Positions 11,564 to 27,692 of a stretch of 27,692 nt of DNA are shown in pieces. The stretch covers positions 1-27,692 of the IMG/VR virus record IMGVR_UViG_3300034954_000162. The stretch is one strand, 5' to 3'. A program made the translations under genes and the position numbers. A model generated the notes under the pieces. That model ran no database searches and was not told where the DNA came from. It worked only from the letters and a program-made list of their open reading frames with translations. The DNA comes from a virus. How positions within the stretch are numbered: the first letter of the stretch is position 1; every line of letters starts with the position of its first letter.

Positions 11564-11565
11564 CA

Positions 11566-12075
11566 ATGGCAATTAATTTAAAAAACCTAGATTCTACTGG
11601 TGGATTTTCTATTGGCGATTCAACGATTGTCGATTCGGATTCCAACATTAAGAATGTAAACACCTTTGAGGTTAAAAACACCCACTATACAGATAGTCAT
11701 TCTCAACATTTTATTTTGAGAGGATTGAACACAGCAACTCTTTCGCTGGATACTTCCTCAACGACTATTTTTGTCCCATCTAATACTATTAGTTTCATCA
11801 CTGCTAATGTAGTTGCTGTGTCAGAAGCAGGCAACGGTGTACTAGTAATGAAACTAGAAACTGCCGTCAGCGCTAGTGCTGCTGGGGCATTGACAGAACT
11901 ATCTACTATGGAAACCATCATTAGAGATGATGTTCCAGCAGCAGAATCATGGTCGATTACACCTTTCACGACAGGTGCCTTAAACAGGTTCAGTTACAAT
12001 ACAGTTAAGTCAGGTTCTAACATCGCCGTAAAGTGGTTCGTATACGTCCAAGTTGCTTCTATCGACTGGAGTTGA
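11566..12075 (+). CDS. Small fibre-like structural protein
   Basis: This 169-residue ORF begins two bases after the stop of the 1,311-residue fibre gene and ends at TGA 12073-12075. The start context is weak (AAGAAATAACA before the ATG), so re-initiation from the upstream gene is plausible. The N-terminus (INLKNLDSTGGFSIGDSTIV) reads like the short attachment modules of cyanophage fibre proteins. The remaining ~110 residues alternate polar and hydrophobic residues like a beta-sandwich, ending SSWITPF-type strands and KWFVYVQVASIDWS. No enzymatic motif, signal peptide or membrane span is present. It may be a fibre tip, a fibre-bound decoration or a separate short fibre. I do not recognise a specific family; structural role by context and composition. 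Confidence 0.65.
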   Translation: MAINLKNLDSTGGFSIGDSTIVDSDSNIKNVNTFEVKNTHYTDSHSQHFILRGLNTATLSLDTSSTTIFVPSNTISFITANVVAVSEAGNGVLVMKLETAVSASAAGALTELSTMETIIRDDVPAAESWSITPFTTGALNRFSYNTVKSGSNIAVKWFVYVQVASIDWS

Positions 12076-12123: not shown

Positions 12124-15100
12124 ATGAGTTTTCAGTTTAATTCTGATAAGGAACGCATTAGAGGTGTAAATCCTACGATTTACGGTGAGAATTCTATCCT
12201 GTTTAGAGCAGGTGTTGGTTCGAATGAAAAGGAAGTCTTTCGAGCCCAACTTGACGCTACCACTGGTGGCGGTCGTGTAGGTATTAATAGAACTGGTAGG
12301 CGAGTTGAAAGAATTGATGTAGACCTTGGTGGTACTGGATACGTTCAGGCACCATCTGTTTTGGTTGCCGAACCTGATCTTCCAGGTGGTATCCGTGCCC
12401 TAGCTTCTGCTGAACTAACAGCAGGTAGTGTTACTCGAATTCTAGTTGAAGACCCTGGTGACGGTTATTCCCAACCCCCCGTCGTCACCATCACTGGTGC
12501 TACTGGTGCTGGTGCTTCAGCAACTGCCGTTCTTGATACTGTTGATTACGAACTTGACATCAACGGTGCTATTAGAACATCTACGTCTATCATTTCTGAT
12601 ACGGCGAGAATCCTCAACCTTGATATTGATAACTTCGTTACTTCTAACGCCCAGTTTAGAGCACCCAATCTAAAGAACTATCAAAATGGTGGTGGTACTC
12701 CTTGGCAGGCAGAAACACTAGTACCTAAGAACGCTTACAGATACTACAACATCTACGTTTATCAGGCGATGAACGTGGGTACAACAGGAACACAACCCCC
12801 AACCCATGCTGATGGTACTGAACTGAATGGAACCGTTCAGTTTAAGCATATTGGTATTAGAGAAAGTCTTCCTGATGCCGATTTCTTCGGAGAGACTGGA
12901 GATTCGGGTATCTTCCCCCGCTCGATCACTCCACTACTTGGTGATAGATCCGATGCTATTGCTACCACCGAGTACGTTCTAAACCTAGCAACCAACGACG
13001 TTGGTGGTAGAATCTACGTTTCAGAACAGATTGGTAATGACGCTAACGACGGTCGTTCCCCAGTTAACCCAGTTAGAACTATTAAAAAAGGTTGTCAGTT
13101 AGCGTGGGAAACGCCTGGCGTCAAAGAAACCATCATCATTGCTGGTGGTAACTACGAAGAAGATAACCCAATTTCAATTCCACCAGACGCTTCTGTTGTT
13201 GGTGACAACCTACGTCTGGTTATTATTCGTCCTAAAAACGAAAGGAAGCACATCTTCAAGTTCGGTGATAAGAACTATGTTATTGGTGTTACCTATCGTG
13301 ACGCTATTGACTCTTTAGGTGACTCTCAGTTCACCTGGGATTACGCCATGGTGTTCGACGACAAACAAAGAGTTGTTCTCGACACAACAGCAGGTGGTAA
13401 TTTTGATCTACCTTTCCCAATTGGTCATCAGGTATTTGGTGCCGATAGATTCCGTGCTAGATTCACAGAAAACGGTGGTCTAACAAACCTACAGGTGGGT
13501 CAGAAGATCTTTGGTGTTAACTCTCTATCTGTTGGTACAGTATACGCTGTCACATTTGACATCACTGATCTCAGTAATGGATTCCACCACCTTGCTGGTG
13601 AATTTGACTTTACGGTTGACTTTGGTACATTCAACATTGGTGAAACATTTAGATATGGTGGTCCTGGAACCACAGAGTACAAAACTAATGTAGACCTGAA
13701 TGTAGGCGATCTGGTCTGGAACCTCGGTGAAGAAGTATATGAGGTAACAGTTGCTGGTACATCAGGTACATCTGCTCCTACACACGACACTGGAGCGGAA
13801 GACGCTACTGGTGGTACTGCTGAGTTTACATATCTACGAGATGCTTACTCACTGATCGCTAATGATATTAGATCGATCAGATCTGAGGGTGAGGTTGTTT
13901 TCGAGAACGATGCTGATCTAGAAGGAGAACCAACTAACTCGATTACTCGTATCGACTTCTCCCTAGCAGGATCGGGAACCCTTGGTGGATTTGGCGAACC
14001 TTCTACTGGTGTCAATGGTCCAGTAGAAGATAATGGTGGCATTGTTATCTACACCAACCCACTGACTGGTAGACAAGGTATTCACGACTTCAAAGAAGGT
14101 GAAGAAATCTTTATTAGTGGTCTGATTGCTGATGGTGGTGCTGAAGATCTTTCTTGGTTGAACGGTTACCAGAGAATCTACAAGGTTCTAGAAGACGCTG
14201 ATGGTCGTGCTCGCCGCTTCATCATTCCTAAGAAAGTTCCTGTAATCGGTGGTGTTCCCCAGTTCACCGCTTCTGATTATGATCCTGGAACAAACGCTAG
14301 AGTAACTACAGCTTCTAGAAATGTCACATTTACACTTCTAAACTCTCCACAGAAGTTTGCTGTATCTCCTCCTGTAGCAAGAAGATTCCAAGACGCTTGT
14401 CTACAAATCAGAAACAACATCGACTACATTGCCGATGAAGTTGTAGGTAAGGTCAATGATCAATTCCAGAAAGATCATTATGCTGTATATGACATTGGTG
14501 GTACTCCATCCAGTCAATTCACTCCTACTGATGTAGATTACAACCCATCTACAGGTGAAGCAGTCTTTACTGTTGCTAACCACGGTCTCTCTATTGGAGA
14601 TGGTGTCAAGATTGAAGACGGATCCATCACATTTGTATGTGGTATGGACAATTATGCTACTGAGCATAAGGCTCCATTGTCCCATCACTATTCCAGTGGT
14701 AAGTCCCTTCCAATTCTTGCTGCCGATACCAACACATTCACTTTGAATGTAGGTGCCTCTGGTCCTGACAAGTATTTCACACCAACCAACGTAACATATA
14801 ACCCAGCAACAGGTGATGCTGTACTTACCGTTGGTGAGCATGGTTTGTCTGAGGGAGAAGGTATTGTTATCGATCAAGAATCCCTAGGATTCACTTGTAC
14901 GATGGATAACAATGATTCCGTCAAGTATTATCCACGTCTAGGTCACGACAAGTACGCTGCTAGATCTATCCCCATCAAGAGTGTAACTCAGACCGAGATC
15001 ACAATTAACGTTGGTAAGTCTAAACTAGATCAATATTTCACTCCATCTGCTGCCACATATGATGCTGCTACTGGCGATCTGACAGTTACTGTAGGTCAGC

Positions 15101-18100
15101 ATGGTCTTGCTGTTGGTAAAGGAATCGTTCTTGAAGACGAGTCTTTCACCTTCACATGTGATCAGAACAATCACCAAACTACCCACCAGTATCCACGTGC
15201 TGGCATCGATCCATATGCTGGTAAGTCAATCCCCATCACTGCTGTAGGTAGCACTCAGCATACAGTTACTGATGCTACGTATAATCCTGCTAATGGTGAG
15301 ATCGTTCTTACTGTTCCTAGTCATGGATTTACCCAAGGCGATTGGGTTCTTGTCGAGGATGGATCACTTGTATTCACCTGTGATCTCGACGGCAACTCCA
15401 CTCAGAAGGCATATCCAAAAGCAAACTACGATTGGGCAAGCAAGCGCTGGTTACAAATCTCCGAAGTTCTTCCAAACAGCTTCAAAATTACTATCGATGA
15501 AGATAGTTGGGGAGACTACACTGGCAACCACACCTTTGTCAGTGCCGCCACCAACGGTCTCCTACGTCAAGATGGAACGTTTACTATTAATGTAGGTGAT
15601 GCTGGATCTGCTACTGGATCTAACCACCTATTTGTTTCGGCAGCCACAAATGCTATGAGACATACCCCACAGGTTGCTCATACATTCGTTTCTGCTGCTT
15701 CTAATTGTGTCAAGCATCTACCACAGTCTCCACATCAGTTCGTAAGATCTGCTCCCAACTCCCTATCTATCGGTGGTGGAGAATTCAAGATCTACCTAGG
15801 ACAGACTGGTTATGTTCACACTTATGTTAGCGGTGGTACAGTAACATTCGGTGGTAACTCTTACAACATCACCAACTTTGTCTACGATAACGTAGTCACT
15901 GGTGAAGCAACAATCACCACTGCTACATCTATCGTTGGACTAGCAAACGACAGCATCGTCAAACTAGACGATATTCTAGTCGAGTGTAATATTGGTGGAA
16001 CTGTTACTCAGAAACTATATCCAAGTTTCAGTATTCCAGTTAGCGATACTAAGTGCCGTAGAGACATCGGACACTTCATTAATGCTATTCTTAGAGACCT
16101 TGAATATGGAAGTAACTACAATACCATTGACGCTGCTAAGAAATACATCTCTGCTGGTCAAGTTGATTTCGTAGACTACGAAATTATTCAGACTGTACGT
16201 GCTTTCGAGTACACCAGAGAACTGATGAACTATGCCATGTGTAAGTGGCGTACAGGAACTGGTGCTCCAGGACAACCCCAATACACTTCTCAGTATACGT
16301 CTCTACCCCAGTATATTGATATCTCCGTTATTGACGACGATGATCCTATTGCTTGTGATGATGTAAGATCTGCTATCAGCACTCTGGCATACTTGTTTGT
16401 TGATGTCATCACTAATGATTCTAGTGGCACAACTCTTGATGCTGCTTACTTGATCGCTAGAAACAGAGATTTCATTGCTGATGAGGCATACGGAAAGACA
16501 AAGAGTGTATACCCAACACTAAATCTCAATGATATTGACGAGCGTAAGTGCCGTAGAGATATCAACAAAGTTATTGATGCTGTACTGAAAGACTTGGTTC
16601 TTGGTGGCAACACTGCTTCTGTCGAAGCTGGTGAAAGCTACTTCACTGGCACCACACTAACTGGTTTACCACCTAGCGAAGTAGGACCTACACTTTATAC
16701 ATTCGAAACAGCAAGAGATCTTTCCATCCTTGCCATGAGGAATTGGAAGACTGGTGGTGGCAACGGCGCTGTATACAACCCCGCTCATTCTCCAATCCCA
16801 CAATTCACTGATAGCACCATTCTGGTTGACCCAGATGGCACTCCAACATCTCAGTGGACCCCAACAGGAGCAACCTATGATCCTGCTACGGGTGAGTTCA
16901 TCATGGTTATTCCTAGTAACACCATTACAACAAATGATGTTATTAGACTAGACCTTGAAAGCTTTGTGTTTACATGTGCCATGGATGGCAATGCCACAGA
17001 GCACGCTCTACCTGGAGCATATCAACTAGCAGGAACTCAGGCAAGACCTGTAACCAATGTCAGTGGTTCTAATGTAACTATCAACGTTGGTGCTTCTGGT
17101 CCCGACCAGTTGTTCACCCCAACAGATGTTACCTACAATCCTCAGACTGGCGACATGGTTCTCACCATTGCCACTGAGCAAGATCCACATACTCTAAGCA
17201 TTGGCGAAGGTATTGTACTAGAACCAAATGCTTTCAGTTTCACCTGTGCCATGGATAACCATGACAGCACAAAGACTTATCCACGTCCTGGTATCGATCC
17301 TTTCGCTAGCAGATCGATTAAGATTAAGGATACAACTGATACTACAATCACCCTTAATGTAGGAAACGCTGGTCAGAACAAGTATTTCACTCCATCTGCT
17401 GCCAGCTACAACCCATCAACAGGTGACATGACAGTCACTGTTGGTCAACATGGTCTTGGTGTTGGTAGAAGTGTTGTTCTGGATGACCTATCCTTTACCT
17501 TCACCTGTGCCCTAGATGGCAACCAGTCTACTCACCAGTATCCACGTCCTGGAACTGACCCATATGCTGGCAAATCTATCGCCATCACAAACGTTGGTTT
17601 TACCAATCACACACCAACAAACGTTACCTACAATGCTTCTACAGGTGTAGTTCAATTTACTATTGGTGGTCATGGATTTGCTAATGGTGATTATATCAAG
17701 ATTGATGATGGTTCGCTAGACTTCACATGTGTTCTTGATGGCAATACAGTAGCTAAGTCTTATCCACGTGCTGGTTATGACTATCCATCTGGTCGTTGGA
17801 TGAAGATTAGTAATGTAACTAACAACACCTTTGATATCAATGTAGGTCCTTCTGACTATGATGGCACTCACACCTTTGTTAGTGCCGATGCTAATTCTGT
17901 TAAGCGTCAGGACGGCACATTCACCATCAACGTTGGTACATCTTCTGATACATCAGTACACACATTTGTTAGTGCTACTACTAACGCTATCAAGTTCCTA
18001 CCACAGTCTGCTCACACATTCGTTAGTGCTGCTGCCAACTCGGTTAAGCACCTACCACAGTCTACTCACACGTTCGTAAGAACTAAAACAAATTCTGTTT

Positions 18101-21100
18101 CGGTATATCCTTCTACAGGTAATGCCATGTGTGCTGGTGTTGAAACATCACTCACCACATACTACGGAATTGTTAACGACATCATTTCGGAAACAACACC
18201 TCCTGGTACTGTAACCAAGACAGTAGGAACCCTGTTTGAAACAGGTCCTATTACTACCGTACCAGATAACACAGTCTATGATCTCAATGGTCAAAGATTG
18301 ACTATTCGTGCTGTAGCAGATGACCTCCCAATTATTGAGGCATCTCCATATACACAGAACGCTTCTGTTATCTCGTTCCTTGGTGGTTCTGGTGCTCTGA
18401 TTGACGGTTCTAAGGTCAAGCAACCTAACTGTCCTTTCCCTGGTCTACTAGCAGACGGAAGTGCTAAGTTCCCCAACCAGGGTAAATCGATGGTTGCCTC
18501 GGCATTCACGATTGTATCCTTCGGTGGTGATGGATACAAACTAGCGAACGATGGTTATGTTCAGTTGGTTTCGGTCTTCTGTATCTTCTGTGCCAACGGT
18601 GTTCTTGCTGAGTCTGGTGGTTACGCTTCTATCACCAACTCTGCTACAAACTTCGGTCTAAACGCCCTTAAGGCAACTGGATTTAGAGCAGAACCATACA
18701 GCTTTGACGCTGGTTACGAACTGAATGCTCAGTACAATGAAGCATACATCAGTTCTTCTTCCCAGACGTTGGGTGGTAGAACACAGTTTGTTATCTCCGA
18801 CCTTGGTAGAGCACCACTGGAGCACTACATCGTCAAGATCGAAGGTTACAGTCACCCAACCGAAGGTCTCTACTACTACGTAGATGCTGTCGAACTCCTC
18901 GGTGATGGTCCTCCATTCGCCGCTAGAGTTACCCTTGAGGATGGTACTGGTGGTGGTGTTGCTCTATTCAAGGAAGACGCCACAGGTCAAATTAGAAACG
19001 CCGAGTACCTTGCTCAACTTAACCCACAACCCAAGGCTGCTCTACACAGACCTTCTATCGTTAACTCTTCTTCCCACACTTGGGAATTCGCTGGATCTGG
19101 TGTTAACTACCTGGCACTACCTGAAAACGGTGGTATCAAGACAGAAGCACTGGAACAGGTACAAGAGAACTACGGTCGTGTATATGTCTCTGGTACTGAC
19201 GAACTGGGTGACTTCAAGGTTGGTACGTTCGCTAGAATTGAAAACAGAACTGGTAACATCACCTTCACAGGTACGGTTTCGATCTCGGAAGTTGAATTCC
19301 TGAAACTGAAAGGCGGCGACGTTGTTGTTACTGGATTCGACGCTAGCAACAACCTCGGTGGTGCTAACTCCTCTAACTCTAAACTACCTACTCAGAAGGC
19401 AGTTAGAGACTTCATCACCAACAACCTCGGTCCATACATTAACAAGCCATACTCCACGAACGCTGTTCCTAGAGCACTGGTCGAACTAACTGATTCTGGT
19501 AAGATCAACATCGACCAGATTCCACCACTACGTCCTTTCAACGTTTTCACTGTTACTACTGAGTCACAGAGACTTGCTATTGAAGGTGCTCTTGCTGGTG
19601 ACATCGTTATCCAGGAGAACATTCCTCCAGCAGCATCTGAGACATTCATTCTTAACAACGACAACTATTCGTTGTTCCTTGGATTCCCAGTTGATCCTAC
19701 CCTACAGTTCACTATCGGTGATGTCTTCACTGGTAGCACTTCTGGCGGTAAGATCCAATCCACTGAATACAGAGAAGGTGTTCTATTCCAGATCAACCTA
19801 ACTGAAGGTGGTGCTGGATACACTTCCCCACCAGTTGTTACCATCACTGGAGGTAACCTCCAAGCAGGTGGTATCCACGGTGCTGCTGAAGCAACCGTTG
19901 CTAACGGTGAGGTTGTTAAGATTGAACTAATTCTCTTCAACGGATACACTGGTGGTAAAGGATATACTTCTCAACCAGAAATTCAGATTGCTGCTCCTAC
20001 TGGCGGTGGCGCTAGTGCTGTTACGGCAGAAGCAGAAGGTCTGATTGAATCTAGACTCTATGGTCAAATCGTCAACAACGTTAAGATCGACGACAACGAT
20101 TCGATCTTCTCCAGTGACGTTCCTGCTGAGACAATCAACCTAACCAGAGTTATTAACACATCTGCTGAGAATACTGCTAACTGGGTATCTCTATCCACAA
20201 CTAATATCTCTGCTGATAACATCACGTCTGGTACGATCTCCACAGAACGTTTGGGTACTAACGCTACCGCTGCTAACTCCTTCACGTTCCTAAGAGGCGA
20301 CCAATCTTATGCTCTTGCTGTTCAGTCCCTGAAGGAACCTGAACTCAGATACTTTGCTGTTGTCAAGACTCCTGTTGGTATTGACGCTAACGTTATTGCC
20401 TTTGAACTAGAACCTGCCCTGAAACCAGGACATGAAATTACATCCATCACAACTGGTATCCAGGGTGGATCTAAGATTAGTTCTGTTGAAACTGACGGCA
20501 ACACAACTACAGTCGTTATCGACCAACTAACAACTGCCTCAATCCCTGCTGGTACTGTTATCGAGTTCTTCCGAGGAGATTCACCAATCTTCTTCGACTC
20601 TACATATACGTCTGGTAACTTCATCGAACAGATCATCATCGTAGATGGTGGTAGTGGTTTCGATAACGGATCTTACTTCAGTGTTCCTATCACTGGTGGT
20701 AACGGTAACAACCTAACAGTCAACATGGTTGTTTCTGACGTTGGTGTTGATCAAGGTGTTGTTACTAACGTTACTATCGTTAACGGTGGCGACGGATACG
20801 ACACTGACTTCACCGTCACAGACTTCCCTGCTGATATCGGTAACGGTACTGGTTTGATCATGCTTGCTAAGAGAAGCACGATCAACAAACAGTATGCTAA
20901 CGTCACCATCGACATCAACAGAGTTGAAGGTAACACCCAGTTTGGTTCACAAGACTACTCTTCTCTTGGTGTTGCTAGATTCAAGCAAGGCGACTTCACC
21001 TTCGGTCCTAACGGTGCTATTGGTATCTACCAGGGTTCTGACTCTGGTCTTGACGCTGACCTTCTTGATAACAAGGACAGCTCCTTCTTCAGAAATGCTA

Positions 21101-23661
21101 GTAACCTAGAATCTGGTACTGTACCTAGAGACAGACTTTCTGGTTCCTACAACATCTCCGTTGAACTATCCTCTGGATCTACAGGTCTACTTGACACCGA
21201 TCTAGGTAACGTCAACGGTAACCCACCTGCTTATCTGTATAAGACTGGTGTTACCGCCTTCACCAGATCTAATGGTTCTGACGGTCTAACCAGCGCCATG
21301 GCGGCAGGTAACTATCACGGTGTTCTGACCTACAGACAGGGTGGTAATGGTAACGACTCCACATATGGTGGTGTTAGACAGTTGGCATTCACGGACAACA
21401 ATAAGTTATTCCTCCGTGGTTCTGGTTCTTCTGTTGATACAGAAACCACCGACTGGACTGAGTGGTATGAAGTTTGGACTTCTGGTAATGACGGTCCTGA
21501 TACTGGCATGGACTCCGACAAGTTGGATTCCAAGCAAGGTCTCTTCTACCAGAATGCTTATAACCAGCAAGCAGGTAGATTCCATGATAGGCACATGCCT
21601 ACCTTCCAGTTTGCTAAGGACTTCAGAAAGAGTATCAGAATTCTTGATACTGGTTCTGCTTCTACACCTAACATCCGTTGGGCAGTATATATCCAGAACA
21701 GTGTAACCACCAGTAACATCGGTGCCTTCTCTGTATCTCCATGGCAGATCGGTACTCAAGTTAACATCTACCGTCCAAATGAAACTGAGACTGGTAAGAT
21801 GACCATCGGATTCATTGAGGTCAATAACGACACCAATGAACCTAGCAACAACTACGTTATTGTCCACGGTACTCAGACAGTTGGTGCTGGTGAGCAAATG
21901 TTCACCGAAGGCATCAAGATTGGTTCTAACTTCGCTACTGCTGTAACGTATCAAAACTGGACTCTATCTGATAGAGATCCTAACAACAACGGCAGACCTG
22001 ATGGTACATATGAAGTTGCCTCTCTATATGGAGACAACGGTGTAGGTATCCTAAGTCTTGGTAGAGACGGTGTTGATACTGCTCCTGCCATCTACTTCAG
22101 AACCAGTGCTACTGGAGCACCTACTGCTAACGCTGCTATCGTTGCTACAGGCACACAGTCCTCTAACTACAGTGCTGCTCTTAACGTCAAGGTTGCTGAC
22201 GCTAACTCCTTCAAGGTCAACAGTTCGGTTGTCTGGAACGCTCAGAACGTTGACTTCCATTCCGATGGAACAACACCTACTCTAGATGCTCAAGGTAATA
22301 TTACCAAGAGAGCAGCAGTAATGCTCGATGCTAACGGCGATTTCGTCGCTAACTCCATCACTGCTGACTTGACTGGTCAAGCATCTGAGAACGTTCTCAA
22401 GACTGGCGATACGATGGAGGGAACCCTCTTCATCAGTGGTATCGCTGCTGCTAACCAGGCACTGAGTGTATCTGGTAGAGCAGACTTCCTCGCCGCTGTA
22501 AACGTCGGTGCTGACCTGAAAGTTAACGAGGGTACTGGTACTGCTACATTCGTCGCTGATAGCGCCAACAACAATGTATTGATTGGTACTAACAACAGCG
22601 TCTCTGCTGCCAAACTACTGATCGTAGAGCAAGCAGATAAGGATGCTCTCTTTAGAATGTATTCTGCCAACGCTAGCCGTGATGCTCGTATCCAACTTCT
22701 TGGTCAGGGTGGAGATCCTAGTGTCGAAGGTCTTGAAATTCAGTATGATAATGACACTGGTGAAGTCTTCTTCAAGCAACTCTTTAGTGGAATTACCACC
22801 ACTAAGGCAATGGTATTCAACACTGCTAACTTCACTGATGCCCTGACGATTACTGGTAACGGTAACGTTGGTATCAACAAAGTTGCTGATGATGCTGTCG
22901 AACTTGATATCGCTGGTGATGCTAGAGTCGAGACCAGTTTCCAAGTTGGTCTTGCCAACTCCAACGCTGGTGCTCCTATCATCTTCGCTGGTGCTACTGG
23001 TGCTGAGACATCTCCTGGATCTGGTGCTTACCTCTCTAACTTCAGAATTGGTAACCAGATGATTGGTGGTGACGTATTTGAGATTACCGCTAACGACGGT
23101 ACTCAAGGTTCACTAACCTGGAAGTCTACTCCTGCCCTTGCTATTCAAGGTACTACGAACAGAGTTGCTATTAACACTGATCAGTTTGGTGGAACAGATA
23201 CTACCGTAACGCCAAACGAAGCACGTGTATATGCCTTGAATATTGGTGGAGACATCAACATTAATGGTAAGGTATACCAAGACAACGCTGAGTTTGTTAC
23301 CTCACGTTGGACTGAAGCTGATAATGAACTAGATATCTACAGAGCATCTAAGGTTTGGATCAATGCTGATCCTACTGCTTCTGCCTTCACTGGCAACCCA
23401 GACTATGCCCTACAGGTATCTGGATCTCTTGGAATCAATGGTACTACACTCAACGCTGATGGATCCAGCGATGACGTAATGTATGTCAACGGCGATAAAT
23501 TGTTCGTTGATAAGTTCGGCGTATTCAAGACAAACAGAAATGTAATTGACTACGATGTCACGATTCCTGCTAATACAAATGCTGTTAGTGCTGGTCCTTT
23601 GACTATAAATAGTTCCACGGTAGTTACTATCGCTAACGGAAGTTCCTGGTCGGTTGTATAA
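12124..23661 (+). CDS. Giant modular tail fibre (3,845 residues)
   Basis: Probably a trimeric fibre. Order by residue: GY-x2-PP beta module (about 58-145); QPPTHADG module (205-235); beta-helix-like region starting GGRIYVSEQIGNDANDGRSP (295-420); TSGTSAPTH module (540-560); helical NNIDYIADEVVGK segment (752-782); repeat superblock 1 (800-1216); two CRRD-containing helical segments (from 1311 and 1476); superblock 2 (1579-1994); a second beta-helix-like region (2040-2200); SSHTWEFAGSGVNYLALPEN (about 2316); more GY modules (2552-2640, 2833-2913). LDADLLDNK-type and W-TEWYEVW knob motifs like T4 gp34/37 and pyocin knobs follow (2976-3160), then LKTGDTMEGTL (about 3420). The C-terminus (IPANTNAVSAGPLTI) resembles a common fibre-tip trimerisation motif. 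No S74 intramolecular chaperone is seen at the end. ATG 12124 is chosen as the first in-frame start after the gap. Fibre identity is strong; receptor unknown. Confidence 0.87.
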   Translation: MSFQFNSDKERIRGVNPTIYGENSILFRAGVGSNEKEVFRAQLDATTGGGRVGINRTGRRVERIDVDLGGTGYVQAPSVLVAEPDLPGGIRALASAELTAGSVTRILVEDPGDGYSQPPVVTITGATGAGASATAVLDTVDYELDINGAIRTSTSIISDTARILNLDIDNFVTSNAQFRAPNLKNYQNGGGTPWQAETLVPKNAYRYYNIYVYQAMNVGTTGTQPPTHADGTELNGTVQFKHIGIRESLPDADFFGETGDSGIFPRSITPLLGDRSDAIATTEYVLNLATNDVGGRIYVSEQIGNDANDGRSPVNPVRTIKKGCQLAWETPGVKETIIIAGGNYEEDNPISIPPDASVVGDNLRLVIIRPKNERKHIFKFGDKNYVIGVTYRDAIDSLGDSQFTWDYAMVFDDKQRVVLDTTAGGNFDLPFPIGHQVFGADRFRARFTENGGLTNLQVGQKIFGVNSLSVGTVYAVTFDITDLSNGFHHLAGEFDFTVDFGTFNIGETFRYGGPGTTEYKTNVDLNVGDLVWNLGEEVYEVTVAGTSGTSAPTHDTGAEDATGGTAEFTYLRDAYSLIANDIRSIRSEGEVVFENDADLEGEPTNSITRIDFSLAGSGTLGGFGEPSTGVNGPVEDNGGIVIYTNPLTGRQGIHDFKEGEEIFISGLIADGGAEDLSWLNGYQRIYKVLEDADGRARRFIIPKKVPVIGGVPQFTASDYDPGTNARVTTASRNVTFTLLNSPQKFAVSPPVARRFQDACLQIRNNIDYIADEVVGKVNDQFQKDHYAVYDIGGTPSSQFTPTDVDYNPSTGEAVFTVANHGLSIGDGVKIEDGSITFVCGMDNYATEHKAPLSHHYSSGKSLPILAADTNTFTLNVGASGPDKYFTPTNVTYNPATGDAVLTVGEHGLSEGEGIVIDQESLGFTCTMDNNDSVKYYPRLGHDKYAARSIPIKSVTQTEITINVGKSKLDQYFTPSAATYDAATGDLTVTVGQHGLAVGKGIVLEDESFTFTCDQNNHQTTHQYPRAGIDPYAGKSIPITAVGSTQHTVTDATYNPANGEIVLTVPSHGFTQGDWVLVEDGSLVFTCDLDGNSTQKAYPKANYDWASKRWLQISEVLPNSFKITIDEDSWGDYTGNHTFVSAATNGLLRQDGTFTINVGDAGSATGSNHLFVSAATNAMRHTPQVAHTFVSAASNCVKHLPQSPHQFVRSAPNSLSIGGGEFKIYLGQTGYVHTYVSGGTVTFGGNSYNITNFVYDNVVTGEATITTATSIVGLANDSIVKLDDILVECNIGGTVTQKLYPSFSIPVSDTKCRRDIGHFINAILRDLEYGSNYNTIDAAKKYISAGQVDFVDYEIIQTVRAFEYTRELMNYAMCKWRTGTGAPGQPQYTSQYTSLPQYIDISVIDDDDPIACDDVRSAISTLAYLFVDVITNDSSGTTLDAAYLIARNRDFIADEAYGKTKSVYPTLNLNDIDERKCRRDINKVIDAVLKDLVLGGNTASVEAGESYFTGTTLTGLPPSEVGPTLYTFETARDLSILAMRNWKTGGGNGAVYNPAHSPIPQFTDSTILVDPDGTPTSQWTPTGATYDPATGEFIMVIPSNTITTNDVIRLDLESFVFTCAMDGNATEHALPGAYQLAGTQARPVTNVSGSNVTINVGASGPDQLFTPTDVTYNPQTGDMVLTIATEQDPHTLSIGEGIVLEPNAFSFTCAMDNHDSTKTYPRPGIDPFASRSIKIKDTTDTTITLNVGNAGQNKYFTPSAASYNPSTGDMTVTVGQHGLGVGRSVVLDDLSFTFTCALDGNQSTHQYPRPGTDPYAGKSIAITNVGFTNHTPTNVTYNASTGVVQFTIGGHGFANGDYIKIDDGSLDFTCVLDGNTVAKSYPRAGYDYPSGRWMKISNVTNNTFDINVGPSDYDGTHTFVSADANSVKRQDGTFTINVGTSSDTSVHTFVSATTNAIKFLPQSAHTFVSAAANSVKHLPQSTHTFVRTKTNSVSVYPSTGNAMCAGVETSLTTYYGIVNDIISETTPPGTVTKTVGTLFETGPITTVPDNTVYDLNGQRLTIRAVADDLPIIEASPYTQNASVISFLGGSGALIDGSKVKQPNCPFPGLLADGSAKFPNQGKSMVASAFTIVSFGGDGYKLANDGYVQLVSVFCIFCANGVLAESGGYASITNSATNFGLNALKATGFRAEPYSFDAGYELNAQYNEAYISSSSQTLGGRTQFVISDLGRAPLEHYIVKIEGYSHPTEGLYYYVDAVELLGDGPPFAARVTLEDGTGGGVALFKEDATGQIRNAEYLAQLNPQPKAALHRPSIVNSSSHTWEFAGSGVNYLALPENGGIKTEALEQVQENYGRVYVSGTDELGDFKVGTFARIENRTGNITFTGTVSISEVEFLKLKGGDVVVTGFDASNNLGGANSSNSKLPTQKAVRDFITNNLGPYINKPYSTNAVPRALVELTDSGKINIDQIPPLRPFNVFTVTTESQRLAIEGALAGDIVIQENIPPAASETFILNNDNYSLFLGFPVDPTLQFTIGDVFTGSTSGGKIQSTEYREGVLFQINLTEGGAGYTSPPVVTITGGNLQAGGIHGAAEATVANGEVVKIELILFNGYTGGKGYTSQPEIQIAAPTGGGASAVTAEAEGLIESRLYGQIVNNVKIDDNDSIFSSDVPAETINLTRVINTSAENTANWVSLSTTNISADNITSGTISTERLGTNATAANSFTFLRGDQSYALAVQSLKEPELRYFAVVKTPVGIDANVIAFELEPALKPGHEITSITTGIQGGSKISSVETDGNTTTVVIDQLTTASIPAGTVIEFFRGDSPIFFDSTYTSGNFIEQIIIVDGGSGFDNGSYFSVPITGGNGNNLTVNMVVSDVGVDQGVVTNVTIVNGGDGYDTDFTVTDFPADIGNGTGLIMLAKRSTINKQYANVTIDINRVEGNTQFGSQDYSSLGVARFKQGDFTFGPNGAIGIYQGSDSGLDADLLDNKDSSFFRNASNLESGTVPRDRLSGSYNISVELSSGSTGLLDTDLGNVNGNPPAYLYKTGVTAFTRSNGSDGLTSAMAAGNYHGVLTYRQGGNGNDSTYGGVRQLAFTDNNKLFLRGSGSSVDTETTDWTEWYEVWTSGNDGPDTGMDSDKLDSKQGLFYQNAYNQQAGRFHDRHMPTFQFAKDFRKSIRILDTGSASTPNIRWAVYIQNSVTTSNIGAFSVSPWQIGTQVNIYRPNETETGKMTIGFIEVNNDTNEPSNNYVIVHGTQTVGAGEQMFTEGIKIGSNFATAVTYQNWTLSDRDPNNNGRPDGTYEVASLYGDNGVGILSLGRDGVDTAPAIYFRTSATGAPTANAAIVATGTQSSNYSAALNVKVADANSFKVNSSVVWNAQNVDFHSDGTTPTLDAQGNITKRAAVMLDANGDFVANSITADLTGQASENVLKTGDTMEGTLFISGIAAANQALSVSGRADFLAAVNVGADLKVNEGTGTATFVADSANNNVLIGTNNSVSAAKLLIVEQADKDALFRMYSANASRDARIQLLGQGGDPSVEGLEIQYDNDTGEVFFKQLFSGITTTKAMVFNTANFTDALTITGNGNVGINKVADDAVELDIAGDARVETSFQVGLANSNAGAPIIFAGATGAETSPGSGAYLSNFRIGNQMIGGDVFEITANDGTQGSLTWKSTPALAIQGTTNRVAINTDQFGGTDTTVTPNEARVYALNIGGDININGKVYQDNAEFVTSRWTEADNELDIYRASKVWINADPTASAFTGNPDYALQVSGSLGINGTTLNADGSSDDVMYVNGDKLFVDKFGVFKTNRNVIDYDVTIPANTNAVSAGPLTINSSTVVTIANGSSWSVV
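14521..15771 (+). repeat. Repeat superblock 1 of the giant fibre
   Basis: It encodes residues 800-1216. Four imperfect ~80-90-residue repeats each carry a Y-[ND]-x-[AS]-[TN]-G start, an HG-L/F-type turn, a single conserved Cys in FTC-like context and, in most copies, a YPR-like motif. They are followed by four ~20-residue H-x-FV-[SR] repeats that include RQDGTFTINVG and KHLPQS segments. The order of elements matches superblock 2, and the lengths differ by only 3 bp. Confidence 0.85.
16858..18105 (+). repeat. Repeat superblock 2 of the giant fibre
   Basis: It encodes residues 1579-1994. The structure is the same as superblock 1: four Cys-bearing repeats (FTCAMDGN, FTCAMDNH, FTCALDGN, FTCVLDGN), then H-x-FV-[SR] repeats with RQDGTFTINVG and KHLPQS in the same positions. 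Even the lead-in is shared (GTPTSQW-TPT here, GTPSSQF-TPT in block 1). The block as a whole was therefore probably duplicated, long enough ago for the DNA to diverge. Confidence 0.85.
23604..23611 (+). promoter_or_regulatory. Candidate T4-type late promoter for the adhesin cassette
   Basis: This exact TATAAATA lies inside the last codons of the giant fibre gene, with 53 bases before the ATG at 23665. Its spacing nearly equals that of the copy at 7566. It is read in frame as ATA-AAT-AGT, again using ATA for Ile. It would drive the three glycine-rich genes independently of the 11.5-kb gene upstream. Confidence 0.6.
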
Positions 23662-23664
23662 AAA

Positions 23665-24414
23665 ATGAGTACAATTTTTGTAAACAACATACAAGCGTCG
23701 TCTGGCAACCAAGTCGTTATTCCAGCGGGTCATTCATTATTGTTGGGGGGAACTCCCTTAGATAGTTCCTCCTTGATGCCCAACCCATCTGGACAAGGCG
23801 GACTTGGTGTTGCTAGTGACGGCACTAGTTATGTGTTTAATTCCTATGGTGCTAAAGGCATCATTACCTTCACGTCTAACTCCACTTATTTCCCATCTTC
23901 TGGTACTAAATTAGTATACGTAAGAGTTGTGGCTGCTGGTGGTGGAGGTAGCGGATACGCTGAGAGTGGTGGAGCTGGAGGATTTGCCGAAGGTTTCTTT
24001 AGCATGATTGGTGTAGGATCTGTCGGCGTCACCATAGGTACAGGTGGAGGTCCAACTTATTATTCTGGTGGTGCTGCTAGTGGAACAGCGTCCTCATTCG
24101 GATCTTATATTACTTGTACTGGAGGCAACGGAGCAAATTCAAATCACCAACACTGTGGTGGTCTTCCTGGATTAGGTTCTGGTGGTCAAGTAAATCTATA
24201 TGGTGGAGGAGGAACTGGTCACGGACACAATGGTCGTGGTGGTTCTTCTCACTTTGGCGGTAGTAATGGATGTGGTCACCCACAAGCAGGAGCATATGCT
24301 CCTAACCATCAAACTCATGGATCTTATGGTGGCGGTGGTGCTAATGGATGGGGTGGTTCTTACACTGGTGCTAAAGGCGTCGGTGGTTGTGTAGTAGTAA
24401 TGGAGTACGGTTGA
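23665..24414 (+). CDS. Glycine-rich adhesin-like fibre protein, paralogue 1
   Basis: This 249-residue protein is the first of three tandem paralogues and starts three bases after the giant fibre stop. Its N-terminus (MSTIFVNNIQASSGNQVVIP) matches the MSTIKVN-type N-terminal module common in marine phage virion proteins. A strand-rich middle (ITFTSNSTYFPSSGTKLVYV) then enters a glycine-rich C-terminal half (about residue 93 onward). That half contains NHQHCGGLPGLGSGG and an NHQTHGSYGGGG stretch, and ends WGGSYTG-x-KGVGGCVVVMEY. The glycine-rich layout recalls the polyglycine-sandwich adhesins of T-even-type phages (gp38-like), and HxH motifs recall the metal-binding histidines of T4 gp12/gp37. 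It differs from its siblings in having FPSSG where they have W-x-KPAG. Receptor-binding role is inferred from composition and context. Confidence 0.75.
   Translation: MSTIFVNNIQASSGNQVVIPAGHSLLLGGTPLDSSSLMPNPSGQGGLGVASDGTSYVFNSYGAKGIITFTSNSTYFPSSGTKLVYVRVVAAGGGGSGYAESGGAGGFAEGFFSMIGVGSVGVTIGTGGGPTYYSGGAASGTASSFGSYITCTGGNGANSNHQHCGGLPGLGSGGQVNLYGGGGTGHGHNGRGGSSHFGGSNGCGHPQAGAYAPNHQTHGSYGGGGANGWGGSYTGAKGVGGCVVVMEYG
24145..24185 (+). repeat. Conserved 41-bp segment of the adhesin genes, copy 1
   Basis: It encodes HQHCGGLPGLGSGG. It differs from the copies at 24897 and 25665 at only a few silent positions and shares with them an uninterrupted GGTCTTCCTGGATTAGGTTC core. This makes it a good site for recombination between the paralogues. 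Confidence 0.85.
24405..24405 (+). promoter_or_regulatory. Ribosome binding site (GGAG, 24402-24405) deciding the start of paralogue 2
   Basis: GGAG ends eight bases before ATG 24414, inside the last codons of paralogue 1. An earlier in-frame ATG at 24387 lacks such a site and would add nine residues (MCSSNGVRL) not matched in the siblings. This supports 24414 as the true start. Confidence 0.65.
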
Positions 24415-25172
24415 TGTCTATTTTAAGAGTAAACGAAATTCGTCCACAAAATGGAACGTCAGTTAGTATCCCTTCTGGACATTCTCTTGTTCTGGGATCC
24501 ACACCACTGACATCGGCAAATATTATGCCCGACCCAACTGGTCAGGCTGGAAAAATTCTGGTTAGTGATGGTTCTGACCTACAATGGACTTCTGTAGGAC
24601 CAACAGGTATTACTGTATTCACGTCATCAGCTACTTGGATTAAACCAGCTGGCGTGTCCAAGATTTATGTACGCCTAGTTGGCGGCGGTGGCGCTGGTTC
24701 TGGTGTTGGTGAGACTGGTGCTGCTGGTGGTTATTCCGAGAGACTAATTGATGTTAGTGGAGTTTCTCAAGTATCCGTTACTATTGGACTAGGATCTACA
24801 AGTCCTACATATTATTCTGGCGCTGCTGGTGGAGGAACATCTTCATCATTCGGAAGTTACATGACTTGTACTGGTGGTGGCGGTGGAAACCAAAGTCATC
24901 AACACTGTGGCGGTCTTCCTGGATTAGGTTCTGGCGGAGACTTCAATCAGTATGGCGGTGGTGGTAGCGGTCACGAATACTATTCTGGTGTTACTGGAGG
25001 TGCCTCTTATTGGGGAGGATCTGGTGCTAGTGGTCACCCACAAGGAGGTCAGTATTCTGCCAACCACCAGACTCATGCTGCTCCTGGAGCAGGTGGATCT
25101 GCTGGTTATCACACATCTTATGTTGGTGCTGTTGGTCGTGATGGTATCTGTGTTATTTGGGAGTTTAAGTAA
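24414..25172 (+). CDS. Glycine-rich adhesin-like fibre protein, paralogue 2
   Basis: This 252-residue protein starts at ATG 24414 in a TGATG overlap with paralogue 1, preceded by GGAG. The MSILRVNEIRPQNGTSVSIP N-terminus lines up with both siblings. The middle has TWIKPAGVSKIYVRLVGGGG, the W-x-KPAG-x-x-K-V-VGGGG pattern of glycine-rich phage tail adhesin domains. The C-terminal half contains MTCTGG, SHQHCGGLPGLGSGGDFNQY, ASGHPQGG and NHQTHAAPGAGG, and ends ICVIWEF. It is closer to paralogue 3 than to paralogue 1 in the middle and at the NHQTHAAPGAGG segment. The most variable stretch between paralogues lies between GSGGD-type and HPQ-type motifs, which may be exposed loops. Receptor-binding function is inferred. 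It abuts paralogue 3 with no gap. Confidence 0.75.
   Translation: MSILRVNEIRPQNGTSVSIPSGHSLVLGSTPLTSANIMPDPTGQAGKILVSDGSDLQWTSVGPTGITVFTSSATWIKPAGVSKIYVRLVGGGGAGSGVGETGAAGGYSERLIDVSGVSQVSVTIGLGSTSPTYYSGAAGGGTSSSFGSYMTCTGGGGGNQSHQHCGGLPGLGSGGDFNQYGGGGSGHEYYSGVTGGASYWGGSGASGHPQGGQYSANHQTHAAPGAGGSAGYHTSYVGAVGRDGICVIWEFK
24897..24937 (+). repeat. Conserved 41-bp segment of the adhesin genes, copy 2
   Basis: It encodes the same HQHCGGLPGLGSGG peptide and is near-identical to the copies at 24145 and 25665. It is spaced about 750 bp from each, which is one gene length. Confidence 0.85.
25159..25163 (+). promoter_or_regulatory. Ribosome binding site for paralogue 3
   Basis: GGGAG lies nine bases before ATG 25173, within the last codons of paralogue 2. 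Together with the TAA|ATG abutment, this suggests coupled and well-initiated translation of the third adhesin. Confidence 0.6.
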
Positions 25173-25937
25173 ATGTCAACTATTAGAGTAAATATTCTAG
25201 AATCATCTAGTGGTGGTGCTATCAACATCCCATCTGGAAATAGTATTGACCTAGGTGATAGTGGTCTTTCCCTCAGTGAAAATTCATTGCCACCATCCCC
25301 CAGTAGTGGCAATGGACAATATTTGTATAGTGATGGAAGTGCTTCTCCAAGTTTTAACCTACCTGGACCTAAGAGTATTCAAACGTTTACCCAGTCTGGT
25401 ACGTGGAATAAACCAGCTGGTATTGGTAAGATCCTCGTTCGTCTAGTTGGTGGTGGCGGCGGTGGATCTGGTCACGGAGAATCAGCAGGTGCTGGTGGAT
25501 ACTCAGAAAAATTAATTGATGTTGGTAATATTAGTCAGGTATCTGTAACCGTAGGTAATGGTTCTCAGTCAGGAACATACTATTCTGGCAACGGAGGTGG
25601 TGGTCAAACCACATCATTCGGTAGTTACCTTTCTGCTAGTGGTGGTCTTGGTGCTAATCAAAGTCATCAACATTGTGGCGGTCTTCCTGGATTAGGTTCT
25701 GGTGGAGATCTAAACCTCTACGGTGGTGGCGGAACAGGACATTACGGTTATACTGGTGTTGGTGGCACTTCTCACTTTGGTGGACAAGGTGCTACTGGTC
25801 ACCCCCAAGGCGGCAACTATTCTCACAATCACCAAACTCATGCTGCTCCTGGAGCAGGTGGCGGTAGTGGATGGAGATCTAGTTATCAAGGAGCACATGG
25901 TTCCAATGGTATTATCGTTATCTACGAATACGCCTAA
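25173..25937 (+). CDS. Glycine-rich adhesin-like fibre protein, paralogue 3
   Basis: This 254-residue protein is the last of the tandem set. Its N-terminus (MSTIRVNILESSSGGAINIP) and TWNKPAGIGKILVRLVGGGG core align with paralogue 2. The glycine-rich half has SHQHCGGLPGLGSGGDLNLY, GATGHPQGG, HNHQTHAAPGAGGGSG and a C-terminal IIVIYEY. Where the siblings have a Cys in the (I/M)TCTGG strand it has LSASGG, so it keeps only the Cys of HQHCGG there. The stop codon overlaps the candidate late promoter of the next gene. Like its siblings it would be a cell-surface binding tip; whether the three assemble together or are used alternatively is unknown. Confidence 0.75.
   Translation: MSTIRVNILESSSGGAINIPSGNSIDLGDSGLSLSENSLPPSPSSGNGQYLYSDGSASPSFNLPGPKSIQTFTQSGTWNKPAGIGKILVRLVGGGGGGSGHGESAGAGGYSEKLIDVGNISQVSVTVGNGSQSGTYYSGNGGGGQTTSFGSYLSASGGLGANQSHQHCGGLPGLGSGGDLNLYGGGGTGHYGYTGVGGTSHFGGQGATGHPQGGNYSHNHQTHAAPGAGGGSGWRSSYQGAHGSNGIIVIYEYA
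25665..25705 (+). repeat. Conserved 41-bp segment of the adhesin genes, copy 3
   Basis: This is the third copy of the segment encoding HQHCGGLPGLGSGG, with only scattered silent differences from the other two. Confidence 0.85.
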
Positions 25938-25940
25938 ATA
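25933..25940 (+). promoter_or_regulatory. Candidate late promoter before the 158-residue gene
   Basis: CCTAAATA, continuing AATAAG, overlaps the stop of paralogue 3 and lies 29 bases before ATG 25970. It has the same CTAAATA form as the candidate at 12078. It could also serve the halogenase gene, which follows nine bases after the 158-residue gene. Confidence 0.5.
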
Positions 25941-25969
25941 AATAAGATACACGTTTACGAGAAAAGTCA

Positions 25970-26446
25970 ATGAAGCGAGTCCTCATGGATTACCGAGGCG
26001 TCCTTAGTGATGTCGTCGATGTAGGTAAAGAATTTGAAATCTATGATGGTGACGATGCTCCCTTCCGTTGGGTTCTTTGTCGCCATGATGACGTAACCTC
26101 AAACTGGCATTTCTGTCAGGGACAATGGATTCGTCCAGATCAACGTCTTGAGATTGACCAAGATATCAAGCGTAAGGTAGCATATGGTCTTATTGAAGAT
26201 CAACTAGATATGCTCTATAAAGATATCAAGGCAGGTCATTTGTCTGATGGTAATTGGGTTTCTCACATAGAAAACGTAAAGACAAATATCCCACCACAAA
26301 GGGAAATGGAAAAGAATGAAGCTTACAAAGAAGGTAAGTTCGAGATTAAACTCCATGCCAAGAATGATCCAGCATGGAACTACTTGCCTGATAATGATGG
26401 CGAGCAACTAAAATTTAACAAAGAGAAAGATTCCCGTCCTCATTGA
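25970..26446 (+). CDS. Hypothetical cyanophage protein, possible fibre assembly factor
   Basis: This 158-residue, acidic and soluble protein has no membrane segment. The N-terminal half (VGKEFEIYDGDDAPFRWVLC, then WHFCQGQWIRPD) looks like a small beta domain with two Cys near aromatic residues. The middle, about residues 70-105, has YGLIEDQLDMLYKDIKAG followed by W-x-SHIENVK. I associate this pattern with small cyanophage tail proteins, and it loosely resembles tail-fibre-assembly or chaperone tails in other phages. The C-terminal ~50 residues are charged and probably disordered. A position right after three adhesin genes fits a chaperone for them, but that is guesswork by association. The start is weakly supported by AGAAAAG upstream. 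Confidence 0.7.
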   Translation: MKRVLMDYRGVLSDVVDVGKEFEIYDGDDAPFRWVLCRHDDVTSNWHFCQGQWIRPDQRLEIDQDIKRKVAYGLIEDQLDMLYKDIKAGHLSDGNWVSHIENVKTNIPPQREMEKNEAYKEGKFEIKLHAKNDPAWNYLPDNDGEQLKFNKEKDSRPH

Positions 26447-26455
26447 TTTTATAAT

Positions 26456-27692
26456 ATGAAAGTGAATTCAATATGTATACTCGGCGGGGGCACTGCTGGG
26501 TGGATGACTGCTGCCTCATTAGTAAAAAACTTTCCAGAAAAAACCATTACCCTAGTAGAATCCGAAGAGGTTCCTAGGATTGGTGTAGGAGAATCTACTC
26601 TACAAAAAATTAGATACTGGTTAGATGATTTGGGAATCAAAGATTCCGATTTCATGAAACATTGTGATGCCACATATAAACAGAGCATCAAATTCGTAAA
26701 CTTCAATGATAACCTAGGCGACTGGCATTATCCATTCACTTCCAATGAACTGCCCCCAGGCACTAAGTATGACATTGCTGATTGGTTTATCCATGCTGGT
26801 TTAAATCCTGAAACTCCAGCTGGAGATTTCGCTAGGTGGATTACACCTAACTACAAGTGTCTGGAAGAAAATAGAATCCCGACACGTGACATGCCTGGAT
26901 TCAAATTTCATTATCAAACAGCGTTTCATTTCGATGCTTTAAAGTTTTCTCATTGGTTGAGAGATGAATACTGTGTTCCCAGAGGACTACAGCATAAGCG
27001 TGCCACTATTGTTGATGTGGAGTACAATTATGATGGAGGAATCAAATGTCTTGTGGATGATGAAGGTAAAACCTTCGAAGCAGATCTATTTGTAGACTGT
27101 ACAGGTTTCAGATCATTCCTACTACAAGACAAGTTAGGAACACCTTTTGATTCTATGGAAGATGTTCTTATTAATAATAAAGCATGGCATACTACAGTTC
27201 CATACAAGGATAAGAAAAAAGAACTGAATGTATATACTACATGTACTGCCAAGTCTGCTGGATGGATATGGAACATTCCATTGACACACAGAGCAGGAAC
27301 TGGTTATGTATTCTGTGATAGGTTTATCAGTGAAGAAAATGCTCTAGAAGAATTCAAAGAACATCTAGGACATCCTGAAGGTGCTGAGTATCGTCTGATT
27401 AACTTTAAGACAGGAATCACCCAGAAAGTGTGGAACAAGAATGTTGTAGGTATAGGATTGTCATCTGGATTTATTGAACCACTTGAATCCAATGGCGTTG
27501 CTTTCTCACATGACTTTGCCATGATCCTGTGTGATGTTCTGTCGAGAAGAGATAAAGTAAATGCTATCGACAGGAACACATTTAATGTTAGATGTAGAAA
27601 TGCCTGGTTTGATTTTGCTTGGTTTGTAGCATTCCACTTCGGATTACAAACTAGAGATGATACTCCTTATTGGAGACATGTCACGGACAATA
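26456..27692 (+). CDS. Flavin-dependent halogenase, tryptophan-halogenase family, VirX1-like (3' truncated)
   Basis: An open frame runs from ATG 26456 to the window edge (412 codons, no stop), nine bases after the previous gene. It has the full family signature: the FAD-binding GGGTAGWM (Gly10-Gly15, GxGxxG), a GVGEST motif, and Lys75 in ATYKQSIKF, aligning with the catalytic lysine of PrnA-type halogenases. It also has WIWNIP (270-275), the diagnostic WxWxIP, and FIEPLESNG (339-347), the FxxPxxSxG motif of single-component flavin halogenases, which holds the likely catalytic Glu. These enzymes halogenate substrates using reduced FAD, oxygen and halide, via HOX relayed to the lysine. Cyanophage Syn10 encodes VirX1, a broad-substrate iodinase of this family, the natural comparison. 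No flavin reductase is in the window, so the host would supply FADH2. No ribosome binding site is evident; coupling to the upstream gene is likely. Confidence 0.9.
   Translation, partial: MKVNSICILGGGTAGWMTAASLVKNFPEKTITLVESEEVPRIGVGESTLQKIRYWLDDLGIKDSDFMKHCDATYKQSIKFVNFNDNLGDWHYPFTSNELPPGTKYDIADWFIHAGLNPETPAGDFARWITPNYKCLEENRIPTRDMPGFKFHYQTAFHFDALKFSHWLRDEYCVPRGLQHKRATIVDVEYNYDGGIKCLVDDEGKTFEADLFVDCTGFRSFLLQDKLGTPFDSMEDVLINNKAWHTTVPYKDKKKELNVYTTCTAKSAGWIWNIPLTHRAGTGYVFCDRFISEENALEEFKEHLGHPEGAEYRLINFKTGITQKVWNKNVVGIGLSSGFIEPLESNGVAFSHDFAMILCDVLSRRDKVNAIDRNTFNVRCRNAWFDFAWFVAFHFGLQTRDDTPYWRHVTDN

Follow-up and report, generated by a model that had tools for sequence, protein, structure and literature searches.

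A tandem pair of flavin-dependent halogenases in a probable late gene module linked to tail-fibre adhesins of T4-like cyanophages

What might a halogenase do for a phage when its gene is located between those of the tail fibre and the neck? This question is raised by the stretch of DNA analysed here (hereafter, the window), the first 27,692 nucleotides of IMG/VR record IMGVR_UViG_3300034954_000162, which comes from a T4-like Synechococcus cyanophage (Kyanoviridae), with Sf-FR1, Syn1 and S-RIM44 as its nearest relatives. The window closes on an open reading frame (26456-27691, + strand; 412 codons, open at the right edge) that we denote FDH-A, preceded by genes of the tail fibre and its presumed tip:

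12124..23661, + strand: 3845-aa ORF, probable tail-fibre trunk; its S-RIM44 counterpart is annotated 'structural protein'
23605..23611, + strand: ATAAATA late-promoter-like motif, 53 nt upstream of adhesin 1
23665..24414, + strand: glycine-rich tip adhesin 1 (phrog_863)
24414..25172, + strand: glycine-rich tip adhesin 2 (PF21722, phrog_863; the longest ORF runs from 24387)
25173..25937, + strand: glycine-rich tip adhesin 3 (PF21722 Gly_rich_2, phrog_863)
25938..25944, + strand: ATAAATA late-promoter-like motif, 25 nt upstream of the 158-aa gene
25970..26446, + strand: 158-aa gene (phrog_1787), constant companion of glycine-rich adhesins
26456..27692, + strand: FDH-A, first gene of a tandem halogenase pair, with 412 of its 508 codons within the window
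27942 and 27952 in parent-record coordinates, both beyond the window: start of the second halogenase gene, FDH-B, and end of FDH-A, respectively

The initial annotation described a phage-encoded flavin-dependent halogenase (FDH) with an intact active-site signature, and this assignment is almost certainly correct. FDH-A matched the Pfam family Trp_halogenase (PF04820; E=5e-105, 352 bits against a cut-off of 21 bits) and phrog_2928 'tryptophan halogenase' (E=5e-136), and the best solved structure by sequence was that of VirX1 (6QGM, E=3e-90 for the window ORF). Each of the elements that identify an FDH is present, namely, GxGxxG (GGGTAG, residues 10-15), the catalytic Lys (K75 within ATYK), WxWxIP (WIWNIP, 270-275), FxxPxxSxG (F339-P342-S345-G347), and the catalytic Glu (E344, in FIEPLESNG). 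Across 15 phage relatives, G10/G12/G15, K75, W270, P275, F339, P342, E344 and G347 are invariant. An AlphaFold model (pLDDT 88) retrieved VirX1 as the top PDB match (TM 0.90), followed by PyrH and PrnA, and the top 50 matches were all FDHs, so that fold and sequence alike place the protein among halogenases as opposed to other flavin monooxygenases. The alternatives of a broken gene or a non-halogenating monooxygenase are ruled out by the open 508-aa frame, the sequence matches and the fold matches. Judged from its residues, the catalytic competence of FDH-A is well supported, and the enzyme is presumably active.

The complete frame was recovered outside the window, as the initial annotation had proposed by way of a check. 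In the parent record (28,759 bp), the FDH-A frame continues past the window and a second halogenase then begins, with a 21-N scaffold gap (27693-27713) directly after the window and the frame open on either side of it. The gap length is a placeholder because contig L004, which matches the window at 99.98% identity along 9.2 kb and lacks the gap, has about 50 nt at this place. L004 encodes a complete, stop-free FDH-A of 508 aa with no early stop beyond the window, followed by FDH-B (533 aa), a gene missed by the initial annotation that overlaps the 3' end of FDH-A by 11 bp. A second intact copy of FDH-A, 90% identical at the protein level and in the same layout, is present in contig L006. Between the two contigs, dN/dS was 0.081 for FDH-A and 0.050 for FDH-B, indicating that both genes evolve under purifying selection.

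The relationship of the pair to VirX1, the only viral halogenase characterised in the literature we searched, differs from what the initial annotation implied. VirX1 is indeed the closest solved relative (E 5e-92 at full length, over residues 2-498 of 508), shares the catalytic Lys/Glu and WxWxIP with FDH-A, and belongs to the same gene block; however, its PDB chain is 100% identical to AGH56623, encoded by the second of the two Syn10 genes, which makes it a B partner, whereas FDH-A is an A partner. FDH-A is only 39% identical to VirX1 but 47.7% identical to the uncharacterised first gene of Syn10 (AGH56624), with which it clusters. In a tree of 131 FDHs, a quick tree without bootstrap and with some long branches, SH-aLRT support was 98 for an A clade of first genes and 98-99 for a B clade of VirX1-type second genes, with FDH-A outside the latter, in its own clade; orthology of FDH-A and VirX1 is rejected by this placement together with the identity values. 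Reportedly, VirX1 prefers iodide and forms a trimer.

The 'PrnA-type' label likewise survives in part. FDH-A has the FAD-dependent fold of PrnA, RebH, PyrH and Thal (TM 0.80-0.84) and their catalytic motifs, but not their Trp-binding motif 4, by which free-tryptophan enzymes are defined (YYxxF..EF.NFW.N..YY or [YH]YHG[LF][PE]xYS) and which VirX1 also lacks (PMC8269204). Inspection of all 508 residues found no such motif; the similarity to PrnA/RebH ends at about residue 408, before the motif, and the Trp1/Trp2 positions read STLQKI and YPFTS. FDH-A is, then, neither a free-tryptophan halogenase nor a VirX1 orthologue, and belongs to the non-tryptophan ('group C', VirX1-like) kind of FAD-dependent halogenase. 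Database labels do not follow these distinctions: in Syn10 (HQ634191, L017; 9001-12106), 'tryptophan halogenase' is attached to the uncharacterised partner and the VirX1 gene was deposited as a 'hypothetical protein'. In S-PM2 (AJ630128, L193; 8995-10471), the FDH is found as two unannotated ORFs of 75 and 410 aa and, being split in this manner, may be interrupted. Four Campylobacter phage records and some human faecal phage contigs gave weaker FDH matches.

The pair resides in a larger block of genes. In L004, three adhesins (two of them above the Pfam cut-off for PF21722) are followed by the 158-aa gene, FDH-A, FDH-B, a gene for a 260-aa protein (phrog_7084; 11081-11863), and an oxygenase array that consists of TIGR02466/PF13759 oxygenases, of which two are clear and a third is weaker, a JmjC_2 protein, an unassigned phrog_2954 protein, a 92-aa protein and a DUF6445 protein, after which comes neck gene 13. 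The initial annotation placed the halogenase directly after receptor-binding genes; the adhesins are close upstream, but the 158-aa gene, possibly encoding a fibre-assembly helper, intervenes. Gly makes up 23% and Ser 13% of the adhesins, which have invariant Tyr, Phe and His residues as well as aromatic segments that vary. Five or six proteins of the block are Fe(II)/2-oxoglutarate (2OG)-type oxygenases, one of them the JmjC protein, whose matches are enzymes that hydroxylate proteins: the histidyl hydroxylases NO66/MINA53 and the arginine hydroxylase YcfD. The 260-aa protein has a predicted dUTPase-like fold (pLDDT 89, TM about 0.65 over dUTPase) with 9% identity to dUTPase and C67 as the sole residue invariant across the family, and in 20 of 26 cases its gene is no more than 1 kb away from an FDH.

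Two PHROG labels in the array, 'DNA endonuclease V' (phrog_274, L004 13015-13608) and 'ferrochelatase' (phrog_2954, 14307-14858), are carried by 2OG-oxygenase-like proteins and are probably wrong: the phrog_274 member also matches 2OG profiles, and in the phrog_2954 protein an HxD...H pattern is visible by eye. Human NO66 acts on an NHXH motif in Rpl8 (PMC4556315), and NHQH occurs in some adhesins (L004 5210-7482) near the NO66-like JmjC gene; this is only a hint of JmjC targeting, given that the His is not conserved in the presence of JmjC and also occurs where JmjC is absent.

Is this arrangement peculiar to one phage? The order adhesins, 158-aa gene, FDH(-A, -B), 260-aa gene, oxygenases recurs in Syn10, S-RIM44, P-TIM40, P-RSM6, Sf-FR1, Sf-FP1, S-CREM1, S-WAM1 and S-SZBM1, with one or two FDHs, with the 260-aa gene missing from some, and with neck gene 13 or other genes downstream. 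In seven metagenomic contigs (L038, L044, L047, L057, L062, L066 and L078), the FDH/oxygenase array, with up to five FDHs, is encoded by the other strand and runs convergently towards the adhesins; the 158-aa gene was recognised in some of these but not in others. Because convergent arrays retain the neighbourhood while breaking the shared transcript, the linkage is not only operon hitchhiking, an argument confined to these convergent cases. In L047, L066 and L078, four to five FDH genes with 2OG oxygenases face glycine-rich adhesins on the opposite strand. Within the phage collection, all good matches to the 260-aa protein (14/14) and the 158-aa protein (20/20), and all matches to the adhesin (10/10), were in phages with this type of FDH.

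The association is specific to particular lineages. A tie to fibre genes is a feature of the A and B clades and not of phage FDHs in general, since other clades have psbA, hli or talC as neighbours or are located in the terminase region. Two phages depart from the adhesin pattern, namely Sf-CH11, with a LamG-type neighbour, and S-B64, in which the FDH is found beside recombination genes, and many related viral FDHs occur amid 2OG oxygenases with no recognisable glycine-rich adhesin near. Across the loci around FDHs, oxygenases and adhesins within 4 kb were enriched just 1.5-2-fold, and the 260-aa gene within 1 kb was enriched 4.5-fold; our case does not rely on these distance statistics.

The linkage is also apparent when S-RIM44 isolates with and without the block are compared (four of each in the search lists). 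In Np_42_0711, which has the block, and Sn_08_0709, which does not, both flanks are 94-96% identical, whereas the fibre genes inside them are only 65-70% identical. The interval of Np_42_0711 runs from three adhesins and the 158-aa gene through the FDH pair and the 260-aa gene to the oxygenase array, and that of Sn_08_0709 holds one unrelated adhesin-position protein (phrog_2415), one 2OG oxygenase, and a small protein (phrog_2504) that is a remote relative of the 158-aa protein (profile E 6e-8). Both FDHs, the 260-aa gene and all oxygenases but one have been replaced along with the adhesins, in what may have been one exchange event.

The initial annotation also raised the idea that the halogenase acts late in infection. 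Late genes of T4-like phages are marked by a NATAAATA-type late promoter motif, and a motif of this type was found at 25938-25944, ahead of the gene that precedes FDH-A. ATAAATA is not in excess over the window (3 found vs 4.2 expected), but all three copies are 25-54 nt upstream of a same-strand gene. Among relatives, the motif precedes the 158-aa gene in 11 of 22 cases (background about 4%), neck gene 13 in 9 of 18, and the FDH genes themselves in 9 of 145. The simplest reading would be a late transcript that begins before the 158-aa gene and runs into the halogenases. Together with a location flanked by tail-fibre and neck genes and with the exchange along with adhesins, this motif lends support to a late role, as far as sequence can indicate timing; infection time courses of syn9 and P-TIM40 are published (PMC7238727). 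Overall, we consider it highly probable that FDH-A belongs to an adhesin-linked late module.

What, then, would the module do? The FDH pair most likely works late on a virion protein, for which the adhesins are the best candidates. FDH-A would be made late, from the promoter ahead of the 158-aa gene, and would be translationally coupled to its paralogue FDH-B via the 11-bp overlap, an arrangement suggestive of joint production, whether because the two enzymes form a complex or because they serve different sites. Together with the dUTPase-fold protein and the 2OG/JmjC array, they would constitute a tailoring set for the neighbouring tip adhesins. A host reductase would supply reduced FAD, which, with O2 and halide, would give hypohalous acid, to be passed to K75/E344 before the ring is halogenated; generation of hypohalous acid from FADH2, O2 and halide and its delivery to the ring via the catalytic Lys and Glu are the established chemistry of the FDH family. 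Exposed Trp, Tyr or His residues of the adhesin would be halogenated and other residues would be hydroxylated by the oxygenases, and such modification could tune or stabilise host recognition. We regard a late tailoring set for tip adhesins as the best explanation of the locus as a whole, at somewhat below even odds, and would put the identification of an adhesin as the substrate of the halogenases similarly, as a tentative assignment not far from an even chance.

The pair could instead halogenate a host metabolite or make a small bioactive compound, with its location in the late block being incidental. Such a substrate is possible because VirX1, with its large open active site and broad scope, halogenates many small aromatics in vitro (PMC8407142); a small-molecule role has been assumed for VirX1, 'antibiotic protection' by a cyanophage prnA has been cited as speculative (PMC2984593), and it is near psbA, hli and talC that other phage FDH clades are found. 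The A and B clades, however, are not situated amid photosynthesis or carbon genes but are exchanged with adhesins, their only neighbours being oxidative tailoring genes and small unknown genes, and the block showed no genes for a peptide synthetase, polyketide or transporter, all of which renders a small-molecule substrate unlikely, albeit the alternative to be taken most seriously. We think it distinctly unlikely that the array acts on a different virion protein, on the host surface (for receptor masking or superinfection exclusion) or on ribosomal proteins, and travels with an adhesin that matches the same receptor or host. Exchange of the adhesin module would look identical in that case, JmjC relatives act on ribosomal proteins (PMC4556315), and some arrays include a carbamoyltransferase and a weakly glycosyltransferase-like gene; yet there is no direct sign of a host-surface substrate, and phages of the same host genus with other adhesins are missing most of the oxygenases and both FDHs.

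Hyperplastic regions are well known in T4-like cyanophages, and the interval between fibre and neck genes might simply be an insertion hotspot, in which case linkage would be uninformative on the substrate. Hot-spots have been reported in these phages (PMC3037559) and 2OG genes are widespread in their genomes, but the content of the interval is not mixed, comprising FDHs, the 260-aa protein, 2OG/JmjC/DUF6445 proteins and a small unknown gene, and the linkage persists despite changes in genome position and orientation, so an effect of location only appears very improbable to us. Least credible of all is nucleotide or DNA chemistry, in which the dUTPase-fold neighbour would supply or protect a pyrimidine for halogenation by the FDH: the fold and its frequent adjacency to FDHs speak for it, but the low identity, the single invariant Cys and the lack of DNA-modification neighbours make this reading weak, and we assign it only a slight chance.

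The enzyme family is known; the link to adhesin exchange places VirX1 and its partner in a late module swapped with host-recognition proteins and thereby makes the natural substrate testable. More broadly, it is conceivable, though we would not presume it, that a dedicated array of one to five halogenases and several 2OG/JmjC oxygenases, exchanged together with the tail-fibre adhesins of marine T4-like phages, halogenates and hydroxylates these adhesins post-translationally, that this chemically diversifies or hardens receptor binding, and that it is the natural role of VirX1-type viral halogenases. If true, this would amount to halogenation of a protein by a virus and would add a new chemical layer to host range, and it would account for the abundance of 2OG oxygenases in cyanophages, so far interpreted as nitrogen or DNA-repair genes (PMC3037559).

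We know of no viral FDH that acts on peptides, but there is precedent elsewhere. SrpI (PMC10286304) and ChlH (PMC12518702) are FDHs that act on peptidyl or protein Trp, and MibH is a peptide-acting FDH of the same non-Trp 'group C' as VirX1 (PMC8269204); unlike the phage pair, all three serve ribosomal peptide natural products. On the side of the putative substrate, the adhesins of the block resemble the gp38 adhesins of T-even phages and S16, with their polyglycine-II sandwich (PMC12892980), in being glycine-rich tip proteins with hypervariable segments and in being encoded at the end of the fibre genes. This likeness is one of PF21722/phrog_863 membership and composition. For gp38, no tailoring enzymes are known to us. 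A parallel to the block as such comes from bacteria (Pseudoalteromonas, Microbulbifer, Ferrimonas and others), where FDHs, often multiple, are encoded beside DUF6445/cupin proteins and a surface protein, a TonB-dependent receptor. These loci differ from the phage block in that they are without the glycine-rich adhesin and the 158-aa and 260-aa proteins, and their FDHs are about 31-38% identical. Bacterial FDHs with DUF6445 nearby were found in L110, L118, L124, L128, L130, L136, L139, L165 and L184, and all six loci tested for TonB-dependent receptor genes (L110, L124, L130, L136, L165 and L184) contained them. The parallel between the phage block and this bacterial combination of FDH, DUF6445/cupin and TonB receptor suggests a wider theme, in which FDHs are encoded beside surface proteins.
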